Shown here: positions 47,280 to 57,606 of the stretch, piece by piece | Layout of the letters: each line of letters begins with the position of its first letter | Position numbering within the stretch: the first letter of the stretch is position 1 | Origin: Candidatus Eremiobacter antarcticus | GTDB taxonomy: Bacteria > Vulcanimicrobiota > Vulcanimicrobiia > Eremiobacterales > Eremiobacteraceae | Reading direction: 5' to 3' | Length of the DNA: 64,000 nt | Assembly: GCA_003244105.1 (NCBI GenBank) | Contig: QHBK01000019.1 | Coordinates: 1-64,000, forward strand | Program-made: the position numbers and the translations under genes | The notes under the pieces: model-generated | What the model was told of the DNA's origin: nothing | Database searches by the model: none | The model's input: the letters and a program-made list of their open reading frames with translations, nothing else

Positions 47280-48302
47280 TCAGCGGGTCGCGCGAAAGAG
47301 GCCCATCGCCCCGTTGTCAGCATCGCCGAACGAGTGTGTGACGATCGGATAGATGCCTTCCTGTTGAACCGTGAACTCTGCAACCGCCCCGCCGCCGGGT
47401 GGAACATTCAAGGTCTGGATCCCGACAAGCTCGTTGTGCGGGTTGCCCTCGGTGAATACGCGAGAGAACACGGTTCCGACCACATGAAAAGCGCTGAAGT
47501 GGCTCGGCCCGGCGTCGACGACGAAAGCCCTGACCTTCTCGCCAACCTTAATGGGCAACGGGTTGGTCCGGTACTGAAACGCCATTCCGTTGAAGGTCAC
47601 GACGTCTGCCATGCCCGACTTCATTTTTTGAAGGTCGCCATAGTAATCGGTCGCCGATCCGGGATAGCGCGACGGATAAAACTCGCTTTGCACAAAGACG
47701 AACTGGCGTGCAGCATCACCCCACCCGCCCGGCGGATCGATGATGATCGCGCCGTACATCCCATTGCTGATGTGCGCGAGCACGGGTGCTGTGCCGCAGT
47801 GATACAAGAACGCGCCCGGGTACTGCGCGACCCAAGAGAAATGAAAGGTCTTGCCGGGCTGCACGGTTTGATATGCGACGTCCGGCGGTGCAAGCGCGGC
47901 ATGGAAGTCGATCGAGTGTCCCATCAAGGCCTTGTTGGTCAGGCTGATGTCGACCGTATCGCCGACTTTGACATGCAAAACCGGCCCGGGCACAGATCCG
48001 TTGAAGGTCCAGGCGCGGTAGCGTATTCCGGGAGCGATTTGGACCGTTCGATCGAGCAGAACCAAATCGAAGTGAACCTTGTTCCCATCGCGCAGCGGCG
48101 GCAATTGGTCGGGTTGCGTCGCGGGCGCGGGCAGGCGATAACCGGGCGCGATGGTCGAGACGTCCGCGCTGACCGGCGGCACTTGCAGATCTCCGCGAGT
48201 AGTCTCCGACTTGGGCGCCGAGCAACCCACCGTTGTGAGCAGCAACGTTGAAAGGACCAGAAGCCGTAGAAGCCCTGATCGCCGGACGAATCCAGTGTGC
48301 AT
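47280..48302 (-). CDS. nirK: Two-domain copper oxidase, copper nitrite reductase (NirK)-like lipoprotein
   Basis: A 340-residue lipoprotein (lipobox TTVGC, Cys27) with two cupredoxin domains. The NirK copper set is readable. GHSIDFHA supplies type-1 His, the catalytic Asp and a type-2 His. FLYHCGTAPVLAHISNGMYG gives type-2 His, type-1 Cys, His and Met. AFHVVG and THSFGDADNGAMG in domain 2 supply the remaining type-2/His positions. Nitrite to NO is the expected reaction. The protein is shorter than most NirK at the C-terminus but complete. It is divergent from a di-haem cytochrome gene. Its exact substrate should be treated as probable. Confidence 0.82.
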   Translation of the reverse strand: MHTGFVRRSGLLRLLVLSTLLLTTVGCSAPKSETTRGDLQVPPVSADVSTIAPGYRLPAPATQPDQLPPLRDGNKVHFDLVLLDRTVQIAPGIRYRAWTFNGSVPGPVLHVKVGDTVDISLTNKALMGHSIDFHAALAPPDVAYQTVQPGKTFHFSWVAQYPGAFLYHCGTAPVLAHISNGMYGAIIIDPPGGWGDAARQFVFVQSEFYPSRYPGSATDYYGDLQKMKSGMADVVTFNGMAFQYRTNPLPIKVGEKVRAFVVDAGPSHFSAFHVVGTVFSRVFTEGNPHNELVGIQTLNVPPGGGAVAEFTVQQEGIYPIVTHSFGDADNGAMGLFRATR

Positions 48303-48395: not shown

Positions 48396-48535
48396 TCAAA
48401 AATCTGGGCGCCTGATCCATTTGGCACAATGAAAAATTGGAGAAAATGAATTTCTCGAGTGCTTTACAGACCTCCAGCGCTATTGATACATTCGTAGCAT
48501 ATCGCCGGTCGGCCAATGCGAGGTCTATTCGTGAG

Positions 48536-49888
48536 ATGAAACCACTCATCGTCGTGTTCATGCTTGTTTTGTGCGCGGTCGGAATCGTGTCGGTGGCGCG
48601 GATGTCTGGGGCGCCATCCAATGCCTTGGCCACTGAGGACGTCGCGCAGAGAAGCGACGATCAAGCCATCAACGCGATCGCCGCGAGCATGGTCGACCGC
48701 GGGCGACAGATCTTTCGTTACGATACGTTCGGAGACGAAGCGTTCTGGACGCAAGCCCTCAAACTTCAGCTTGCGATCGAGGGTGCATCGTTAGGTGGCG
48801 TCGGAGCGGGCGTCAGCCCGAAAGCCGCGCTCACGGTCGGCCTCAAAGTCGACATGGACAAACTGCCTGCGGCGTTAGTGGCGCAGATAAAAGCGGGCAG
48901 AGTCGACCTCGGCTCGCCGGCCACGACTCTGGCGCTGCTCCAAGAGGACGCTGTCGTCGGCGTCAAGGCCTCTGTCGGAGCCGCGAACGGTCATCCCCAA
49001 ATTCGCTCCGTCGGCATCTCGTGCGCGCTCTGCCACTCAACCGTCGACAATGCTTTTGCGCCGGGCATCGGTCATCGCCTCGACGGTTGGCCGAACCGCG
49101 ATCTCAACGTCGGCGCGATTATCGCGATGGCTCCGGATCTTTCCGTCGTGCAAAAGCTTTTGGGCGCAAACCGCTCAACGGTGGTCAAAGTCTTGCATAG
49201 CTGGGGACCGGGGAAATTTGACGCGGAGCTGTTCATGGACGGCAAGGCGTTTCGCCCGGATGGAAAGTCGGCCGCGACTCTGCTGCCGGCCGCATTCGGT
49301 CTCGCCGGCGTCAATCTGCACACCTACACAGGGTGGGGATCGGTGACGCAGTGGAACGCCTTCGTGGCAAATCTTGAGATGCACGGCAGCGGAACGTACT
49401 TCGATCCCCGCTTAGCGGACGGTAAACGTTTTCCTATAGCGGCCAAGGCCAAGTTCTACAACGTCCGGGCGCGGGTTGACAACGTCACCTCAAAATTGGC
49501 CGCTCTTCAGTTCTACCAGCTTGCCATTCCAGCACCGACCGCCCCTGCGGGATCGTTCGACGATGCTGCGGCAAGGCGGGGACGTGATGTCTTCGCGATG
49601 GCGCAGTGCTCACGCTGTCACGTTCCGCCACTGTACACGGAGCCCGGTTGGAACATGCACACGGCGCAGGAAGTCGGAATCGACGATTTCCAAGCGAGCC
49701 GGTCGCCCGACGACCGCTATCGCACCACACCGCTGCGCGGCCTGTTCGCCCGTTCACAGGGCGGCTATTATCACGATGGGCGCTTCCCTACTTTGGACGC
49801 CGTGGTCGCCCATTACGATACCTTTCTCAAACTCCATCTGTCGTCGGACCAGCGCCACGATTTAGTCGAGTACTTGAAGTCGCTGTAA
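48536..49888 (+). CDS. Exported di-haem c-type cytochrome (peroxidase-like)
   Basis: A 450-residue protein with a signal peptide (PLIVVFMLVLCAVGIVSVA) and two haem c motifs, CALCH (about residue 163) and CSRCH (about residue 362). The second domain resembles the C-terminal haem domain of cytochrome-c peroxidase/di-haem proteins (YRTTPLRGLFARSQGGYYHDGRF, TLDAVVAHYD). The long spacer (about 200 residues) includes DGWPNRDLNVG. It could deliver electrons to the nearby oxidase or the NirK-like enzyme, or reduce peroxide. ATG 48536 starts directly at the signal peptide; an upstream in-frame ATG would add 33 residues. Confidence 0.85.
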   Translation: MKPLIVVFMLVLCAVGIVSVARMSGAPSNALATEDVAQRSDDQAINAIAASMVDRGRQIFRYDTFGDEAFWTQALKLQLAIEGASLGGVGAGVSPKAALTVGLKVDMDKLPAALVAQIKAGRVDLGSPATTLALLQEDAVVGVKASVGAANGHPQIRSVGISCALCHSTVDNAFAPGIGHRLDGWPNRDLNVGAIIAMAPDLSVVQKLLGANRSTVVKVLHSWGPGKFDAELFMDGKAFRPDGKSAATLLPAAFGLAGVNLHTYTGWGSVTQWNAFVANLEMHGSGTYFDPRLADGKRFPIAAKAKFYNVRARVDNVTSKLAALQFYQLAIPAPTAPAGSFDDAAARRGRDVFAMAQCSRCHVPPLYTEPGWNMHTAQEVGIDDFQASRSPDDRYRTTPLRGLFARSQGGYYHDGRFPTLDAVVAHYDTFLKLHLSSDQRHDLVEYLKSL

Positions 49889-52174: not shown

Positions 52175-53803
52175 TCACCAGGTGCGCATGCCCGGCGCTC
52201 CGTACACGTGCGCTTCCAAAAGCTCGTGCATGGGGCCGACATACGCCAAGACTGCGAGCACCACCGCAACGGTCGCCCACGTTCCGATGCGGTCTAAGTA
52301 GGCGGGCGTCAGCGCTGCGTGTTCCTCAACTTGAGCGACCTCGATGACCTGCGTTTCATCGCGTGCCGTGAACAACGTGCCGAACGCCACCGCTGCGAAC
52401 ATGAGGATGCTCAGGAACAACAGGCTGCCCCCGATGGCGGCCGCGCGCATGTGCGGCATCCAAGCGGCAGCGGCCTGCACTCCGAAGTAGGTGACGTCGT
52501 CCGTGCGGCGCGGTGAGCCCAGCAGGCCGGCCCAGTGCATCGCCGTTGACATAATCGCCATGCCCACAAACCATGTGTAGGTCTGCGCGAGCGCGAGTTT
52601 CGGCGCAAAAAGCCTGCGGCCCGTCAATCGCGGGATCAGCCAGTAGGCGGTGCCCACGAACGTCAACGCTACCGGCCCTCCGACGGTGATGTGGAAGTGC
52701 CCGACGATCCACATGGTGTTGTGCACGATCGCGTCCATGCTGTACGAGGCATTGACGATGCCTCCGAAACCCCCGAAAATGAACAAGATCATCCCAAGCG
52801 CCGGCCCCGTGAAGGCGGGATTGGTCCAAGGCAGCGAGCGGATGGTGGCCCAAAAGCCCTTGACGCCTTTGCGCTGCGCTGCCATCTCAAACGACGCGAA
52901 GATGACAAACGCCGTCATGATCGAGGGAACGACAACGCCGTACGTGTTCATGGTGTGCAGCCACTTCCAGCCTGCTGCGATTCCCGGCTCCAGGAACTGA
53001 TGATGGATGCCGACAGGCGTGGAGAGGATCAGCAGCAGCAAGAAGGCGACGCGGGTCAAGGCGTCGCTGAAGATTTTGCCGCCGTAGTGAAGCGGGATGA
53101 TGTTGTACCAGATCAGGTACGCGCCCATGATCCAGAAATAGACGAGCGGGTGGCCGAAATACCAGAAGAGCATGCGCGTCATCATCACGTTCACGGTCGG
53201 CGTCCAGCCGAGCGACCACGGAATGAGGAAGAAGAGCATTTCGATGGCGACGCCGATGGTCGCGATAAACCACATCACGAACGTGCACGCTGAACCGTGC
53301 ACCACGAGCGGCAAGCGCCGGCCGGGCTGCGTGCGCCAGAACCACACCGCATTGGCGAGAATATCGATCAAAACGAGCCAGGTGCCGACGACCAAGACGG
53401 TCGTTCCAAGGTAGAACGCCGGATGCGCCTTGAGCGGCGCGTAAAAAGTGTACAACACCGATGCGTTGCCGCTCAGGATTGTAGCGGCGGCCGCCAGCGT
53501 GCCCAGCGTCATCAGCCAAAAAGCGCTCCATCCCAACGCGAGCGAGCGATCCCGTGGGATCGCGCGATAGGTCAAAAGCGTTGCGAGCCCCACGATGAAG
53601 AACGTGGTGAAGACGATGGCCATCAACACGCCGTGCGCCGTCAGCATGCGGTAGTAGTCGAACGAGCTCGGCATGCTGACCCAGCGAGCGCGCGAGAGCG
53701 ATTGCAATAGACCGAACACGGCGCCCAGCATCAGCGCGAGCGTGGCGACGTAGAGGTGCGCCAGCACCAGCCGGTTCTCGCGCCTGACGTGCGCTTCCAT
53801 CAT
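52175..53803 (-). CDS. cbaA: Cytochrome c oxidase subunit I, ba3 (B) type
   Basis: A 542-residue haem-copper oxidase subunit I. Helix II has low-spin haem His (YYRMLTAHGVLMAIVF). The CuB/Tyr region is WYFGHPLVYFWIMGAYLIWY. The His pair is STPVGIHHQFLEPG, and the haem a3 and a ligands fall in HNTMWIVGHFHITVGGP. The G-H-P-x-V-Y-F-W and HHQF contexts match the Thermus ba3 family (B-type, fewer proton channels, high oxygen affinity). ATG 53803 overlaps the subunit II stop; ATG 53800 is equally possible. Confidence 0.9.
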   Translation of the reverse strand: MMEAHVRRENRLVLAHLYVATLALMLGAVFGLLQSLSRARWVSMPSSFDYYRMLTAHGVLMAIVFTTFFIVGLATLLTYRAIPRDRSLALGWSAFWLMTLGTLAAAATILSGNASVLYTFYAPLKAHPAFYLGTTVLVVGTWLVLIDILANAVWFWRTQPGRRLPLVVHGSACTFVMWFIATIGVAIEMLFFLIPWSLGWTPTVNVMMTRMLFWYFGHPLVYFWIMGAYLIWYNIIPLHYGGKIFSDALTRVAFLLLLILSTPVGIHHQFLEPGIAAGWKWLHTMNTYGVVVPSIMTAFVIFASFEMAAQRKGVKGFWATIRSLPWTNPAFTGPALGMILFIFGGFGGIVNASYSMDAIVHNTMWIVGHFHITVGGPVALTFVGTAYWLIPRLTGRRLFAPKLALAQTYTWFVGMAIMSTAMHWAGLLGSPRRTDDVTYFGVQAAAAWMPHMRAAAIGGSLLFLSILMFAAVAFGTLFTARDETQVIEVAQVEEHAALTPAYLDRIGTWATVAVVLAVLAYVGPMHELLEAHVYGAPGMRTW

Positions 53804-54264
53804 CCTTTCACCTCGATCGTGCCGTACATGTAATGATGGCCCGAGCCGCAATACCCGTTGCACAAGAGCAGATAGGTTCCGGCCCTCCGGAAAACATGAG
53901 TAGCGGAACTGACCCAGCCCGGCACGACCATCATGTTGACCGCCGTGTTCGTGATGAAGAAGCCGTGCACGACATCGGGGCTTGTTGTGTAGAACGTCAC
54001 TTTCGAACCAACCGGTATCGTAATGTGCGGCGGTGTGAACGCGAAGATGTGTGCCAGAAGATACGCCTCATACTGCCGCTGACCGGTCTGCCTAAGGCCT
54101 GGCCTGTCGAAAGGCGGCGTCTGCGCGACTTTGGTCGGGTCAATCGTCTGGATGTGACTGGGAGGGATCATGTTTTCCGACAGCGCCGCGGCGCCGATGG
54201 CGATCAAGAAGACGACCAGTGCCACGACCCCAACAGTTAGCCAAATCTTCTCAGCTCTGTGCAC
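53800..54264 (-). CDS. cbaB: Cytochrome c oxidase subunit II (CuA), ba3 type
   Basis: A 154-residue subunit with one N-terminal membrane helix (IWLTVGVVALVVFLIAIGAAAL) and a periplasmic CuA cupredoxin. CuA ligands are visible: His in SPDVVHGFFI, then CNGYCGSGHHYM supplying two Cys, His and Met. Length fits ba3-type subunit II. GTG 54264 starts the protein. It receives electrons from a periplasmic carrier; the cupredoxin and cytochrome encoded just to the right are candidates. Confidence 0.9.
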   Translation of the reverse strand: MHRAEKIWLTVGVVALVVFLIAIGAAALSENMIPPSHIQTIDPTKVAQTPPFDRPGLRQTGQRQYEAYLLAHIFAFTPPHITIPVGSKVTFYTTSPDVVHGFFITNTAVNMMVVPGWVSSATHVFRRAGTYLLLCNGYCGSGHHYMYGTIEVKG

Positions 54265-54503: not shown

Positions 54504-54872
54504 ATGCTACACAAATGTTTTTCCAAGAGAGCCGTCAGCGGCTTGCTTTCTGTCGCATTCATCATTGCGATTTGGGGCGTTGCCTTCGCGCATCCGACGA
54601 TCGATGTCGCTGCGTCCAACTGGAAGTTCACTCCCGCCAAGATCACCATCCCGGCCGGCGAGTTGACCAAGCTTCGGTTGACGTCCACGACCGGCGTGCA
54701 CGGGCTGAAGTCGGACGACCTCGGAATCAAGGACACGACGATCACCCCCGACAAATTCACAATCGTCGAACTGACGCCGAAGAAGGCGGGGACGTATGTC
54801 GTCCACTGCTCGGTTGTCTGCGGACCCGGTCATCCGGATATGGCGCTGACCATCGTGGTGGCCGCCAAATGA
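54504..54872 (+). CDS. Periplasmic cupredoxin with CuA-like site
   Basis: A 122-residue exported protein (signal peptide AVSGLLSVAFIIAIWGVAFA) consisting of one cupredoxin domain. The ligands read His in TGVHGLKSDD and C-S-V-V-C-G-P-G-H-P-D-M near the C-terminus. That is two Cys four apart, His and Met, the CuA loop found in oxidase subunit II and nitrous-oxide reductase. It has no membrane anchor beyond the signal. ATG 54504 follows AAAGGGAGG. Its stop overlaps the cytochrome-porin start, so the two are co-translated. An electron carrier role is likely. Confidence 0.87.
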   Translation: MLHKCFSKRAVSGLLSVAFIIAIWGVAFAHPTIDVAASNWKFTPAKITIPAGELTKLRLTSTTGVHGLKSDDLGIKDTTITPDKFTIVELTPKKAGTYVVHCSVVCGPGHPDMALTIVVAAK

Positions 54873-56026
54873 GATTCCGGCGTGCGACCGTCGTCATCGC
54901 CGCCGCCCTCGCGCTGGTCTGGATGGTTGATTCCGTGCGGCCCACGCAAGCCATGCCGCCGTTCGCCCAGGCCTACGGAATGCATTGCGAAGCATGTCAT
55001 TCGGTCGTTCCTGCGCTCAACGCGTACGGCCGCTACGTGCAGCGGACCGGCTATGCATCTTTGGACCCGGGGACGATTCACCGAGCGAACCCCATCTGGA
55101 TCGGGGAGTCGCCGTTCTACGACACGCAGGACCCCGCCGAACCGCATGCCATCCAATGGGGGAACCTAGCCATACACGCAGCCGGCTACTTTGGAAACGA
55201 CTGGACCTTCCATTTGCACCAATGGGTCTACCAGTCCGACTTGCCGGGCGGCACCGACACCGTGTGGGTGACGTACAACAACCTGTTCCACCGCGACGGT
55301 CATCTGTTCTTCGGCGAAATCGAGGCGCCCGCTCCCTCTCCCTTCAGCCAGTGGTTCGATCTCAATGGCTTCGCGCCGCCCTCGTTCACGGTCGGCGAGC
55401 ACACGCTTCCCTTTGCCGACAACCGCTGGGGAACGAAATTTGCGTACGTGAAGAAATGGTTCACGGGTGAAGTCGCCTATCTCGGCCCGAGCGGCGACCT
55501 GAACGTGGCCACAAACTTCAACCCGGCGGAAACCGATCGGACTTTCCAATGGAGGCTGGTGGATTCGTTAGGCTACAAGCCCTTCGAATTTGGGATTTAC
55601 GGAGGCACCGGCGTGGCGCCCGTGTCCAACGGCTTTGATCGCTACAATGCCACGGCCGTCTACGCTCAGCTCGACGCTCAGCACGGCCTACCCGGCGCCT
55701 TGGCGATCTACCAGCGAGGGCACGACGCCAACCCCGGCACGGATTTCGGGCCAGCCAACAGCAAAGCATTCAGCGTCGAAGTCTATCAACCGTTCCTGTC
55801 CAACAACGCGATGTTGGGGCTGCGCGACGAGTACACCAACGACGGCTTGGGCACCGGCACCCATTCGGGCAACATCGACTTGGCGTTTCTCGCCGAACAC
55901 ACGGTCACCGAACGCCAGGCGCAGGGGCTGATCGTCAACTTGGAAGCCCTGCTGGCGCAAGGCGCAACGCCGGGATGGCGAGGCCAGGTCTGGTTCGTCA
56001 CGACCATAGGGGCGCTGAAGAAGTAG
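54869..56026 (+). CDS. Outer-membrane cytochrome-porin: single haem c domain fused to a beta barrel
   Basis: A 385-residue protein with a signal peptide (VVIAAALALVWMVDSVRPTQA) and one haem c site (YGMHCEACHSVVPALNAYG, about residue 42). About 320 residues of alternating strands follow (NLAIHAAGYFGNDWTFHLHQW, TVWVTYNNLFHRDGHLFFGEI, KFAYVKKWFTGEVAYLG, NIDLAFLAEHTVTERQAQG) ending VWFVTTIGALKK. This is the architecture of fused cytochrome-porins such as Cyc2, which pass electrons across the outer membrane. ATG 54869 overlaps the cupredoxin stop (ATGA). Haem attachment is certain by motif; the barrel is inferred. Confidence 0.78.
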   Translation: MRFRRATVVIAAALALVWMVDSVRPTQAMPPFAQAYGMHCEACHSVVPALNAYGRYVQRTGYASLDPGTIHRANPIWIGESPFYDTQDPAEPHAIQWGNLAIHAAGYFGNDWTFHLHQWVYQSDLPGGTDTVWVTYNNLFHRDGHLFFGEIEAPAPSPFSQWFDLNGFAPPSFTVGEHTLPFADNRWGTKFAYVKKWFTGEVAYLGPSGDLNVATNFNPAETDRTFQWRLVDSLGYKPFEFGIYGGTGVAPVSNGFDRYNATAVYAQLDAQHGLPGALAIYQRGHDANPGTDFGPANSKAFSVEVYQPFLSNNAMLGLRDEYTNDGLGTGTHSGNIDLAFLAEHTVTERQAQGLIVNLEALLAQGATPGWRGQVWFVTTIGALKK

Positions 56027-56131
56027 CTTTCGCCCTGCCGGCGGCACCCTCTACGACGCTTACGACTTTGCAGCAACCGGCGTGACGCCCCGCTAGAGTA
56101 GTAGAGCACCGCATTGCGAAACAAAGCGCGC

Positions 56132-56863
56132 GTGCCGGAGCCGAAAAAGATCCTCGTCGTCGATGACGAGCCGCAGATCGTCGAAGTGCTGGAGCGCTAC
56201 CTCCTTGATGACGGCTTCAACGTTGAGCGCGCGTATGACGGCAAGGCAGCTATTGAGCTCTTCAATGCGGTCAAACCGGACCTCGTGCTGCTCGATCTGA
56301 AGATGCCTGGGGTCACCGGGCTTGACGTGTTCCGCCAACTGCGCTCGGCCTCCAATACGCCCGTTATCATGGTCACGTCCCGAACGGATGAAACGGATCG
56401 CGTGGTCGGTTTAGAGCTCGGCGCGGACGATTACGTGACCAAACCTTTCAGTCCGCGAGAAGTCGTGGCGCGCGTCAAGACGGTGTTGCGGCGGTCCGGC
56501 GACAGCGCGCCGCGTGATCTGTCTACCACTGGCCAGCCGTCCGGCCCTCGGGCCTCATTGCCAATTCGCCTCGGACAGATGATAGTGGATGTGGCGGCGC
56601 ACGAGGTCCGCGTGGGCGAGAAGGCAGTCGCCCTGACGCCCACGGAATTCCGCATCCTCGAAGTGCTTGCCAAGAATGCCGGCAGGACTTTCAGCCGAGC
56701 GCAGCTCCTCGACAAGACGAAGGAGGAAAGCTTCGAGGTGTTCGATCGAACACTCGATCGTCACATAGCCAACCTTCGCAAGAAGATCGAGGACGACGCG
56801 GCCCGGCCGCGCTACGTCCTGACGGTCTTTGGAATCGGTTACAAGATGGCCAAAAACCCATGA
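56132..56863 (+). CDS. OmpR/PhoB-family response regulator
   Basis: About 243 residues. The receiver domain starts KKILVVDDEPQIVEV, the phospho-acceptor Asp is in DLVLLDLKMPG, and the Lys of the switch is in DDYVTKPFSPREV. A winged-helix DNA-binding domain follows (VALTPTEFRILEVLAKNAGR, TLDRHIANLRKKIEDDAARPRYV, GIGYKMAKNP). GTG 56132 is chosen; TTG 56114 is possible. The sensor kinase gene overlaps by four bases. Position suggests control of the respiratory genes to its left, but no site is identified. Confidence 0.92.
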   Translation: MPEPKKILVVDDEPQIVEVLERYLLDDGFNVERAYDGKAAIELFNAVKPDLVLLDLKMPGVTGLDVFRQLRSASNTPVIMVTSRTDETDRVVGLELGADDYVTKPFSPREVVARVKTVLRRSGDSAPRDLSTTGQPSGPRASLPIRLGQMIVDVAAHEVRVGEKAVALTPTEFRILEVLAKNAGRTFSRAQLLDKTKEESFEVFDRTLDRHIANLRKKIEDDAARPRYVLTVFGIGYKMAKNP

Positions 56864-57606
56864 GCGCCGAGGACACGAACTTGCCAGCGGCCCCAAGTGC
56901 CGTCGCCGAGCTGATGCACGAGATGCGCAACGAGCTGACCATCGCAAAGGCGACGGTGGAAGCGTTTGTAGACGGCAAACTGCCGCCCACGCAACAGCGT
57001 CTGGAAGCCGTGCTGCAAGCGCTGATCGAGCTAGAAGCAATGATTGGCGATCTGCCATCCGGCGCGCCCAGCGTCGAAAGCCGGATGCGTCCGTCCGAGA
57101 TCAACGTGTGCGAACTACTGGACCGAGAATATCAATCGCTCGAAGCCATCGCGCGAGCCAAGGGGGTTGCCATTTCGGTGCGGCGTTGCCTTCGGCCGGC
57201 GCAAGCCTGCACGCACTTTTACGCTGATCCAGTGCGAATCGGCGAGATCGTGAAGAACTTGCTCCTCAACGCGGTGCAGGTCACGCCGTCCGGCGGCCAC
57301 ATCGACATCGACTGTTCGCGCCGCGCGGACCAGCTTGAGATCCGCATCCACGATTCGGGCCCCGGCGTCCGGCCGGACGAATCAAAGAAGATCTTTGAAG
57401 CCGGTTTTCGGGGAAGCGCCGCAGCCGCCGGCAGCGCCGGTTCAGGCTACGGATTGGCTTTGGTGAGACGCTTCATCGAAGCGCACGGCGGCACGGTGAC
57501 GCTTTCCCAGGGCGGCGACCATGGCGCCGTCTTCATCGTACGGCTGCCGGGCTCCGTTCAGGCACTCTCGCCGGCGTGCGGAGCGTGCGAATCCTCATTC
57601 GCATAG
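56860..57606 (+). CDS. Cytosolic sensor histidine kinase
   Basis: A 248-residue kinase without membrane segments. The dimerisation box carries the phospho-accepting His in LMHEMRNELTIAK (about residue 20). The ATPase domain shows N-box NLLLNAVQVTPSG, G1 HDSGPGVRPDE and G2 GSGYGLALVRRFI. Absence of a sensory domain means the signal is internal or comes from a partner protein. The C-terminus has three Cys (CGACESSFA), possibly redox- or metal-sensitive (speculative). The start overlaps the regulator stop (ATGA). Confidence 0.87.
   Translation: MSAEDTNLPAAPSAVAELMHEMRNELTIAKATVEAFVDGKLPPTQQRLEAVLQALIELEAMIGDLPSGAPSVESRMRPSEINVCELLDREYQSLEAIARAKGVAISVRRCLRPAQACTHFYADPVRIGEIVKNLLLNAVQVTPSGGHIDIDCSRRADQLEIRIHDSGPGVRPDESKKIFEAGFRGSAAAAGSAGSGYGLALVRRFIEAHGGTVTLSQGGDHGAVFIVRLPGSVQALSPACGACESSFA

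Follow-up and report, generated by a model that had tools for sequence, protein, structure and literature searches.

A CuA-type cupredoxin paired with a distant Cyc2-like haem-porin beside a ba3 oxidase suggests an inward electron route in Eremiobacterota

Our analysis of a 64,000-nucleotide stretch of DNA from Candidatus Eremiobacter antarcticus (hereafter the window) revealed a gene pair that encodes an exported CuA-type cupredoxin and a mono-haem cytochrome-porin, next to the genes of a ba3-type oxidase (Table 1). We propose the following model, which we consider reasonably likely: electrons from an external donor would pass through the haem-porin to the CuA cupredoxin and on to the ba3 oxidase and O2, much as in the Cyc2-rusticyanin-oxidase chain but with a CuA carrier. 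In the first step, the barrel protein would receive electrons on its one c-type haem from a reduced extracellular substrate, for which Fe(II) is the most plausible candidate. The haem domain, predicted to sit where the 16-strand barrel faces the periplasm, would then hand the electron to the cupredoxin, which in turn would deliver it to the CuA centre of the neighbouring oxidase and thus to O2, a step suggested by the conserved gene order and by the similarity of the two CuA sites. The parallel with the Cyc2-rusticyanin-oxidase chain had been drawn in the first-pass annotation of this DNA. That the system works like that chain is well supported by gene adjacency, operon order, gene fusion and the distant Cyc2 homology of the porin, while the inward direction of flow and Fe(II) as its source are what we infer. 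By analogy with Cyc2, Fe(II) is the leading candidate donor, an assignment that we hold with slightly less than even confidence.

Table 1. Positions of the gene pair, its functional sites, neighbouring genes and the porin-CuA fusions (fusions in the coordinates of their own loci)
Feature	Position	Strand	Evidence
Sec-exported CuA-type cupredoxin, 122 aa	54504..54872	+	Pfam, PDB relatives, ligand alignment
CuA ligand H66	54699-54701	+	sequence, alignment
CuA ligand C102	54807-54809	+	sequence, alignment
CuA ligand C106	54819-54821	+	sequence, alignment
CuA ligand H110	54831-54833	+	sequence, alignment
CuA ligand M113	54840-54842	+	sequence, alignment
ATGA overlap, cupredoxin stop / porin start	54869..54872	+	sequence
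Mono-haem fused cytochrome-porin, 385 aa	54869..56026	+	sequence, AlphaFold, Foldseek
Haem domain core	54950..55018	+	sequence, motif definition of PMC8406198, conservation
AMPPFAQAY of haem domain	54950-54976	+	sequence
CEACH of haem domain	54986-55000	+	sequence
PAL of haem domain, residues 48-50	55010-55018	+	sequence
Predicted 16-strand outer-membrane beta-barrel, residues 76-379	55094..56005	+	AlphaFold, Foldseek
ba3-type haem-copper oxidase subunit I (CoxA)	52175..53863	-	Pfam COX1; Thermus ba3 subunit I E 7e-124
ba3 subunit II (CoxB), one N-terminal TM, CuA site CNGYCGSGHHYM	53800..54264	-	Pfam COX2, sequence, alignment
OmpR-family response regulator	56114..56863	+	Pfam; homologues recur near module
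Histidine kinase partner	56860..57606	+	Pfam; homologues recur near module
Copper nitrite reductase NirK, Geobacillus type	47280-48302	-	PDB E 5e-67
Di-haem cytochrome c peroxidase/MauG-like protein	48437-49888	+	
Multi-TM protein, 385 aa	50981-52138	+	
Porin-CuA fusion L044	9992-11539		sequence
Porin-CuA fusion L045	9983-11524		sequence
Porin-CuA fusion L079	7656-9179		sequence

The cupredoxin gene opens with an ATG preceded by AGGGAGG, and its product consists of a signal peptide (MLHKCF...AFA, followed by HPTIDV...) and a cupredoxin domain of about 93 residues; aside from the signal peptide, it lacks a membrane anchor. Its C-x3-C-x3-H-x2-M loop reads CSVVCGPGHPDM, the remaining CuA ligand histidine being H66. 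All five side-chain ligands (H66, C102, C106, H110 and M113) are invariant among 22 aligned sequences, CoxB included, and the loop is kept by all cupredoxins that adjoin homologous porins at the named loci. Pfam (Cupredoxin_1, E 1.2e-11; COX2, E 3.9e-06) and the PDB, in which the CuA domains of Thermus ba3 subunit II are the best solved relatives, agree with the first-pass description of a CuA-type protein; that annotation had also allowed for a missing CuA site, and the complete ligand set was found instead. Judging from these ligands, the protein would bind copper as a binuclear centre. The two cysteines and the CuA loop do not fit the single-Cys loop of a rusticyanin-like type-1 copper site. 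Fold and ligands are those of the Thermus CuA domain, but the window cupredoxin is free-standing and exported by its own signal peptide, without an anchor. The iron oxidiser A. ferrooxidans likewise has a cupredoxin beside a terminal oxidase, AcoP (PMC4059628); unlike the window protein, AcoP carries a transmembrane anchor and a mononuclear green site with the ligands H, C, H and M.

The stop codon of the cupredoxin gene and the start codon of the porin gene share an ATGA, as first described, both reading frames being real, and the overlap likely reflects translational coupling. The signal peptide of the porin ends in TQA, before MPPFAQAYGMHCEACHSVVPALN, and is directly followed by a single CXXCH (CEACH, residues 40-44); P48 and L50 of the subsequent PAL are invariant in 46 sequences. 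Because searches with the porin sequence against Pfam, NCBIfam and PDB sequences returned no meaningful match, the protein was placed by profile, fold and motif evidence alone. AlphaFold, run with 46 homologues, predicted a barrel of 15 long strands and one short strand (mean pLDDT 81.6, pTM 0.79), most strands having a pLDDT near 90, and the same porin fold was obtained with 20 homologues (pLDDT 75.7, pTM 0.74). Residues 22-54, the short helical region of the haem motif, are mostly below a pLDDT of 50 in this haem-free model, so the haem domain as a plug of the barrel, an arrangement envisaged in the first-pass annotation, is at most a possibility. Top Foldseek matches are general porins, namely PorB, Omp32, VhChiP (chitoporin), OmpC/OmpF and OprO/OprP, with a best E of 7e-11. 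The first-pass view of a single-haem barrel protein is thus sustained, a predicted barrel having been found where a soluble, non-barrel C-terminus would have spoken against it. Such a fold presumably resides in the outer membrane; Eremiobacterota are a diderm phylum (PMC6664022, PMC9758169).

How does this porin relate to Cyc2? Keffer et al. (PMC8406198) define Cyc2 by three features: the motif AXPXFAR[Q/K][T/Y] upstream of CXXCH, a PXL four residues past the haem site and a porin with 16 strands. The window porin has the single N-terminal CXXCH after its signal peptide, PAL at the required spacing and, by prediction, the C-terminally fused 16-strand barrel; in its AMPPFAQAY, five of the seven fixed positions agree (A, P, F, A, Y), and Q and A stand in place of R and Q/K. 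Since the published motif is not matched, we do not file the protein as Cyc2, and the first-pass parallel cannot be taken as strict membership. Aligned by hhalign with six plasmid-record proteins that carry a Cyc2-type haem motif (from Methylocystis, Caballeronia, Paraburkholderia, Ideonella, an A. ferrooxidans plasmid and Polymorphobacter; two of them, L089 and L090, with FAAQT rather than FARQT), the porin profile gave a probability of 96.1% and an E of 3e-9 for a stretch that runs from the haem domain to halfway along the barrel. A quick tree unites the AMPxFAQ proteins (97% SH-aLRT) and sets them off from the other Eremiobacterota haem-porins; the stems between groups are long, and a long branch lies between this clade and the plasmid-borne Cyc2-type proteins. 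The search for Cyc2 in other phyla covered plasmid records, and contigs were scanned with subfamily-specific patterns; a restriction to Eremiobacterota is not implied.

On profile and motif evidence, then, the window porin is a distant member of the Cyc2 superfamily, and its predicted architecture suggests that it works like Cyc2. It shares the signal peptide, the CXXCH near an AXPXFA, the PXL and the 16-strand barrel with the proteins of A. ferrooxidans, Mariprofundus PV-1 and Leptospirillum (Cyt572), and differs from them in its AMPPFAQAY, its smaller size and its CuA partner. Other Eremiobacterota haem-porin subfamilies have three haems in 619-646 aa (L091, L092 and L093) or two in 511-525 aa (L094 and L098), and none of these five has a CuA neighbour within 1.5 kb. 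On a Caballeronia plasmid (L085:2921-5938), a Cyc2-motif porin is flanked by a HiPIP gene and a gene for a di-haem cytochrome; it is annotated with a truncated start that leaves the haem region outside the record's CDS.

The same inward chain could draw on a donor other than Fe(II), such as Mn(II), reduced humics or phenolics, a mineral or an electrode. The porin motif differs from that of iron-oxidising Cyc2, the function of remote Cyc2 homologues has been called most uncertain (PMC8406198), and the phylum is distributed across soils, permafrost, moss and mine waters (record titles; PMC8357290). Every verified superfamily member that PMC8406198 and PMC7029218 name, however, oxidises Fe(II), and we regard a different donor as unlikely, if well worth bearing in mind.

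A search for homologous cupredoxin/cytochrome-porin pairs, as envisaged in the first-pass annotation, revealed that the pair is conserved. A same-strand CuA cupredoxin lies no more than 1.5 kb from the porin, mostly 3-50 bp upstream, in 42 of the 50 closest homologue places, compared with 3 of 50 remoter haem-porins, a pairing far beyond chance; some haem-porin homologue occurs in 60 of the 61 genomes searched. Besides CoxB, the window genome encodes only two free-standing CuA cupredoxins, both beside AMPxFAQ porins, one of these genes being on a doubtful contig. We rejected the L002 paralogue (genome G000, contig C2) as evidence for the window genome, on the grounds that 20 kb of this contig match a contig from the MAG of a different family at 99.99% identity. 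The shared segment (L105, G000:C2:195463-215462; L108, G027:C39:1-20000) has a lower GC content than the rest of the window genome and probably represents a mis-binned contig in one of the two MAGs. A second pair in the window genome (G000:C14, L003:888-2652) has a type-1-like cupredoxin with a GCFYHYPTM loop, encoded directly upstream of another Cyc2-like haem-porin with the motif AVPIFAERYG.

The ba3 label of the adjoining oxidase is correct because CoxA matches Thermus ba3 subunit I, and it is accompanied by a short, one-TM CuA subunit II. CoxB starts 239 bp upstream of the cupredoxin on the opposite strand, with CoxA after it, in agreement with the divergent arrangement first noted. Within the window's family, CoxB-CoxA adjoin the pair in 9 of the 11 genomes that have it; the order is CoxB-CoxA-cupredoxin-porin on one strand in seven, and the oxidase is divergent in the window and one other genome. 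Across the phylum, ba3 CoxA was found within the fetched flanks at only 13 of 59 usable named loci; the association with the oxidase is thus strongest within the family of the window, and ba3 need not be the sole partner. As in the rus operon of A. ferrooxidans (Cyc2-Cyc1-rusticyanin-aa3), an outer-membrane haem-porin, a periplasmic copper protein and a terminal oxidase are encoded together; unlike that operon, the window has a CuA rather than a type-1 carrier, ba3 rather than aa3, and no separate cytochrome c gene adjoining the pair. The two-component system on the far side of the porin probably controls the module, homologues of its histidine kinase recurring with 46-51% identity in four own-family loci. 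A promoter scan of the region gave nothing above chance.

Beyond the oxidase lie a NirK gene, 6 kb from the pair, whose product has a lipoprotein-like signal, and next to it the di-haem peroxidase-like gene. The multi-TM protein encoded between NirK and the oxidase contains several histidines and has no Pfam, NCBIfam or PDB match. A role of the pair in denitrification was considered and discarded, as no NirK homologue occurs near pair homologues at 62 named loci. It is conceivable that periplasmic electrons leave through the haem-porin to Fe(III) or humics, or that NO, peroxide or similar oxidants are scavenged by the pair: porin-cytochrome conduits can work in both directions, and the NirK and peroxidase-like genes lie upstream. 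A CuA carrier and an adjoining O2-reducing oxidase, however, fit an electron sink inside the cell, and the single haem of the porin is unlike the multihaem electron exporters. We consider such outward or scavenging roles improbable.

Further support for an inward route through the CuA protein comes from gene fusions. Three single proteins (L044, L045 and L079) combine the haem domain, the porin barrel and a CuA domain, the latter attached C-terminally via a Pro/Ala linker and complete in its ligands. Since both porin ends face the periplasm, the haem and the CuA centre of such a fusion lie on one side of the membrane. In L002 and L021, of which L002 belongs to a sister clade, a c-type cytochrome domain takes the C-terminal place of the CuA domain, and mono-haem and tri-haem c-type cytochrome ORFs, recognised by the CXXCH motif only, often lie beside porins that have no adjoining CuA gene. 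Such swapping of carriers of different chemistry argues for a function in electron transfer, as copper delivery would not predict it. A copper-handling system, in which copper enters through the porin and the cupredoxin serves as a chaperone or assembly factor that loads the CuA of ba3 subunit II, would suit the close resemblance of the cupredoxin to the CuA domain of CoxB, the adjoining ba3 genes and the nearby copper nitrite reductase gene, but is very improbable given the electron carrier's full ligand set in the cupredoxin, the covalent-haem motif of the porin and the cytochromes that replace the copper protein elsewhere.

Eremiobacterota, a little-studied phylum, abound in poor and acidic soils, and little is known of where they obtain energy. 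The window genome, a member of this phylum (2.64 Mb in 19 contigs), encodes RuBisCO, a cytochrome b and a [NiFe] hydrogenase, a set compatible with a facultative lithotroph. The pair is not confined to autotrophs, a RuBisCO-family match being present in only 13 of 61 relatives. The phylum's sole isolate did not grow lithoautotrophically on H2, sulfide or thiosulfate; Fe(II) is not among the donors listed (PMC9758169). The first-pass suggestion that the lineage is not known for such a route finds no support in this form, a Cyc2-like cytochrome gene having been reported in 2021 from the Eremiobacterota acid-mine MAG 15 as a possible Fe(II) oxidase (PMC8357290); the excerpts of that paper describe no copper partner, fusion or ba3 link, and a match in subfamily is not implied. 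We found no description of a CuA partner or a porin-CuA fusion in the open-access literature, and it is the CuA pairing and the fusion that appear to be new here.

What would such a route mean for these bacteria? We tentatively suggest, as a proposal that may well prove too broad, that electron uptake throughout Eremiobacterota starts at a Cyc2-like haem-porin, which passes the electrons straight to a CuA protein (in some cases part of the same polypeptide), and continues to ba3. If so, this would be the first CuA centre to act as the periplasmic carrier from an outer-membrane oxidase, as far as the open-access literature shows, and would demonstrate that a CuA centre can serve as a carrier on its own, outside an oxidase subunit; with the natural porin-CuA fusions, the transfer of electrons would lend itself to study in a single protein. 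The Cyc2-like superfamily would extend past its current diagnostic motif, and surveys requiring PXFAR[Q/K][T/Y] would miss porins of the window type. Many of these soil bacteria would then be unrecognised oxidisers of iron or another external donor, and the iron cycle would gain a hitherto overlooked participant through a conserved electron route across the outer membrane.
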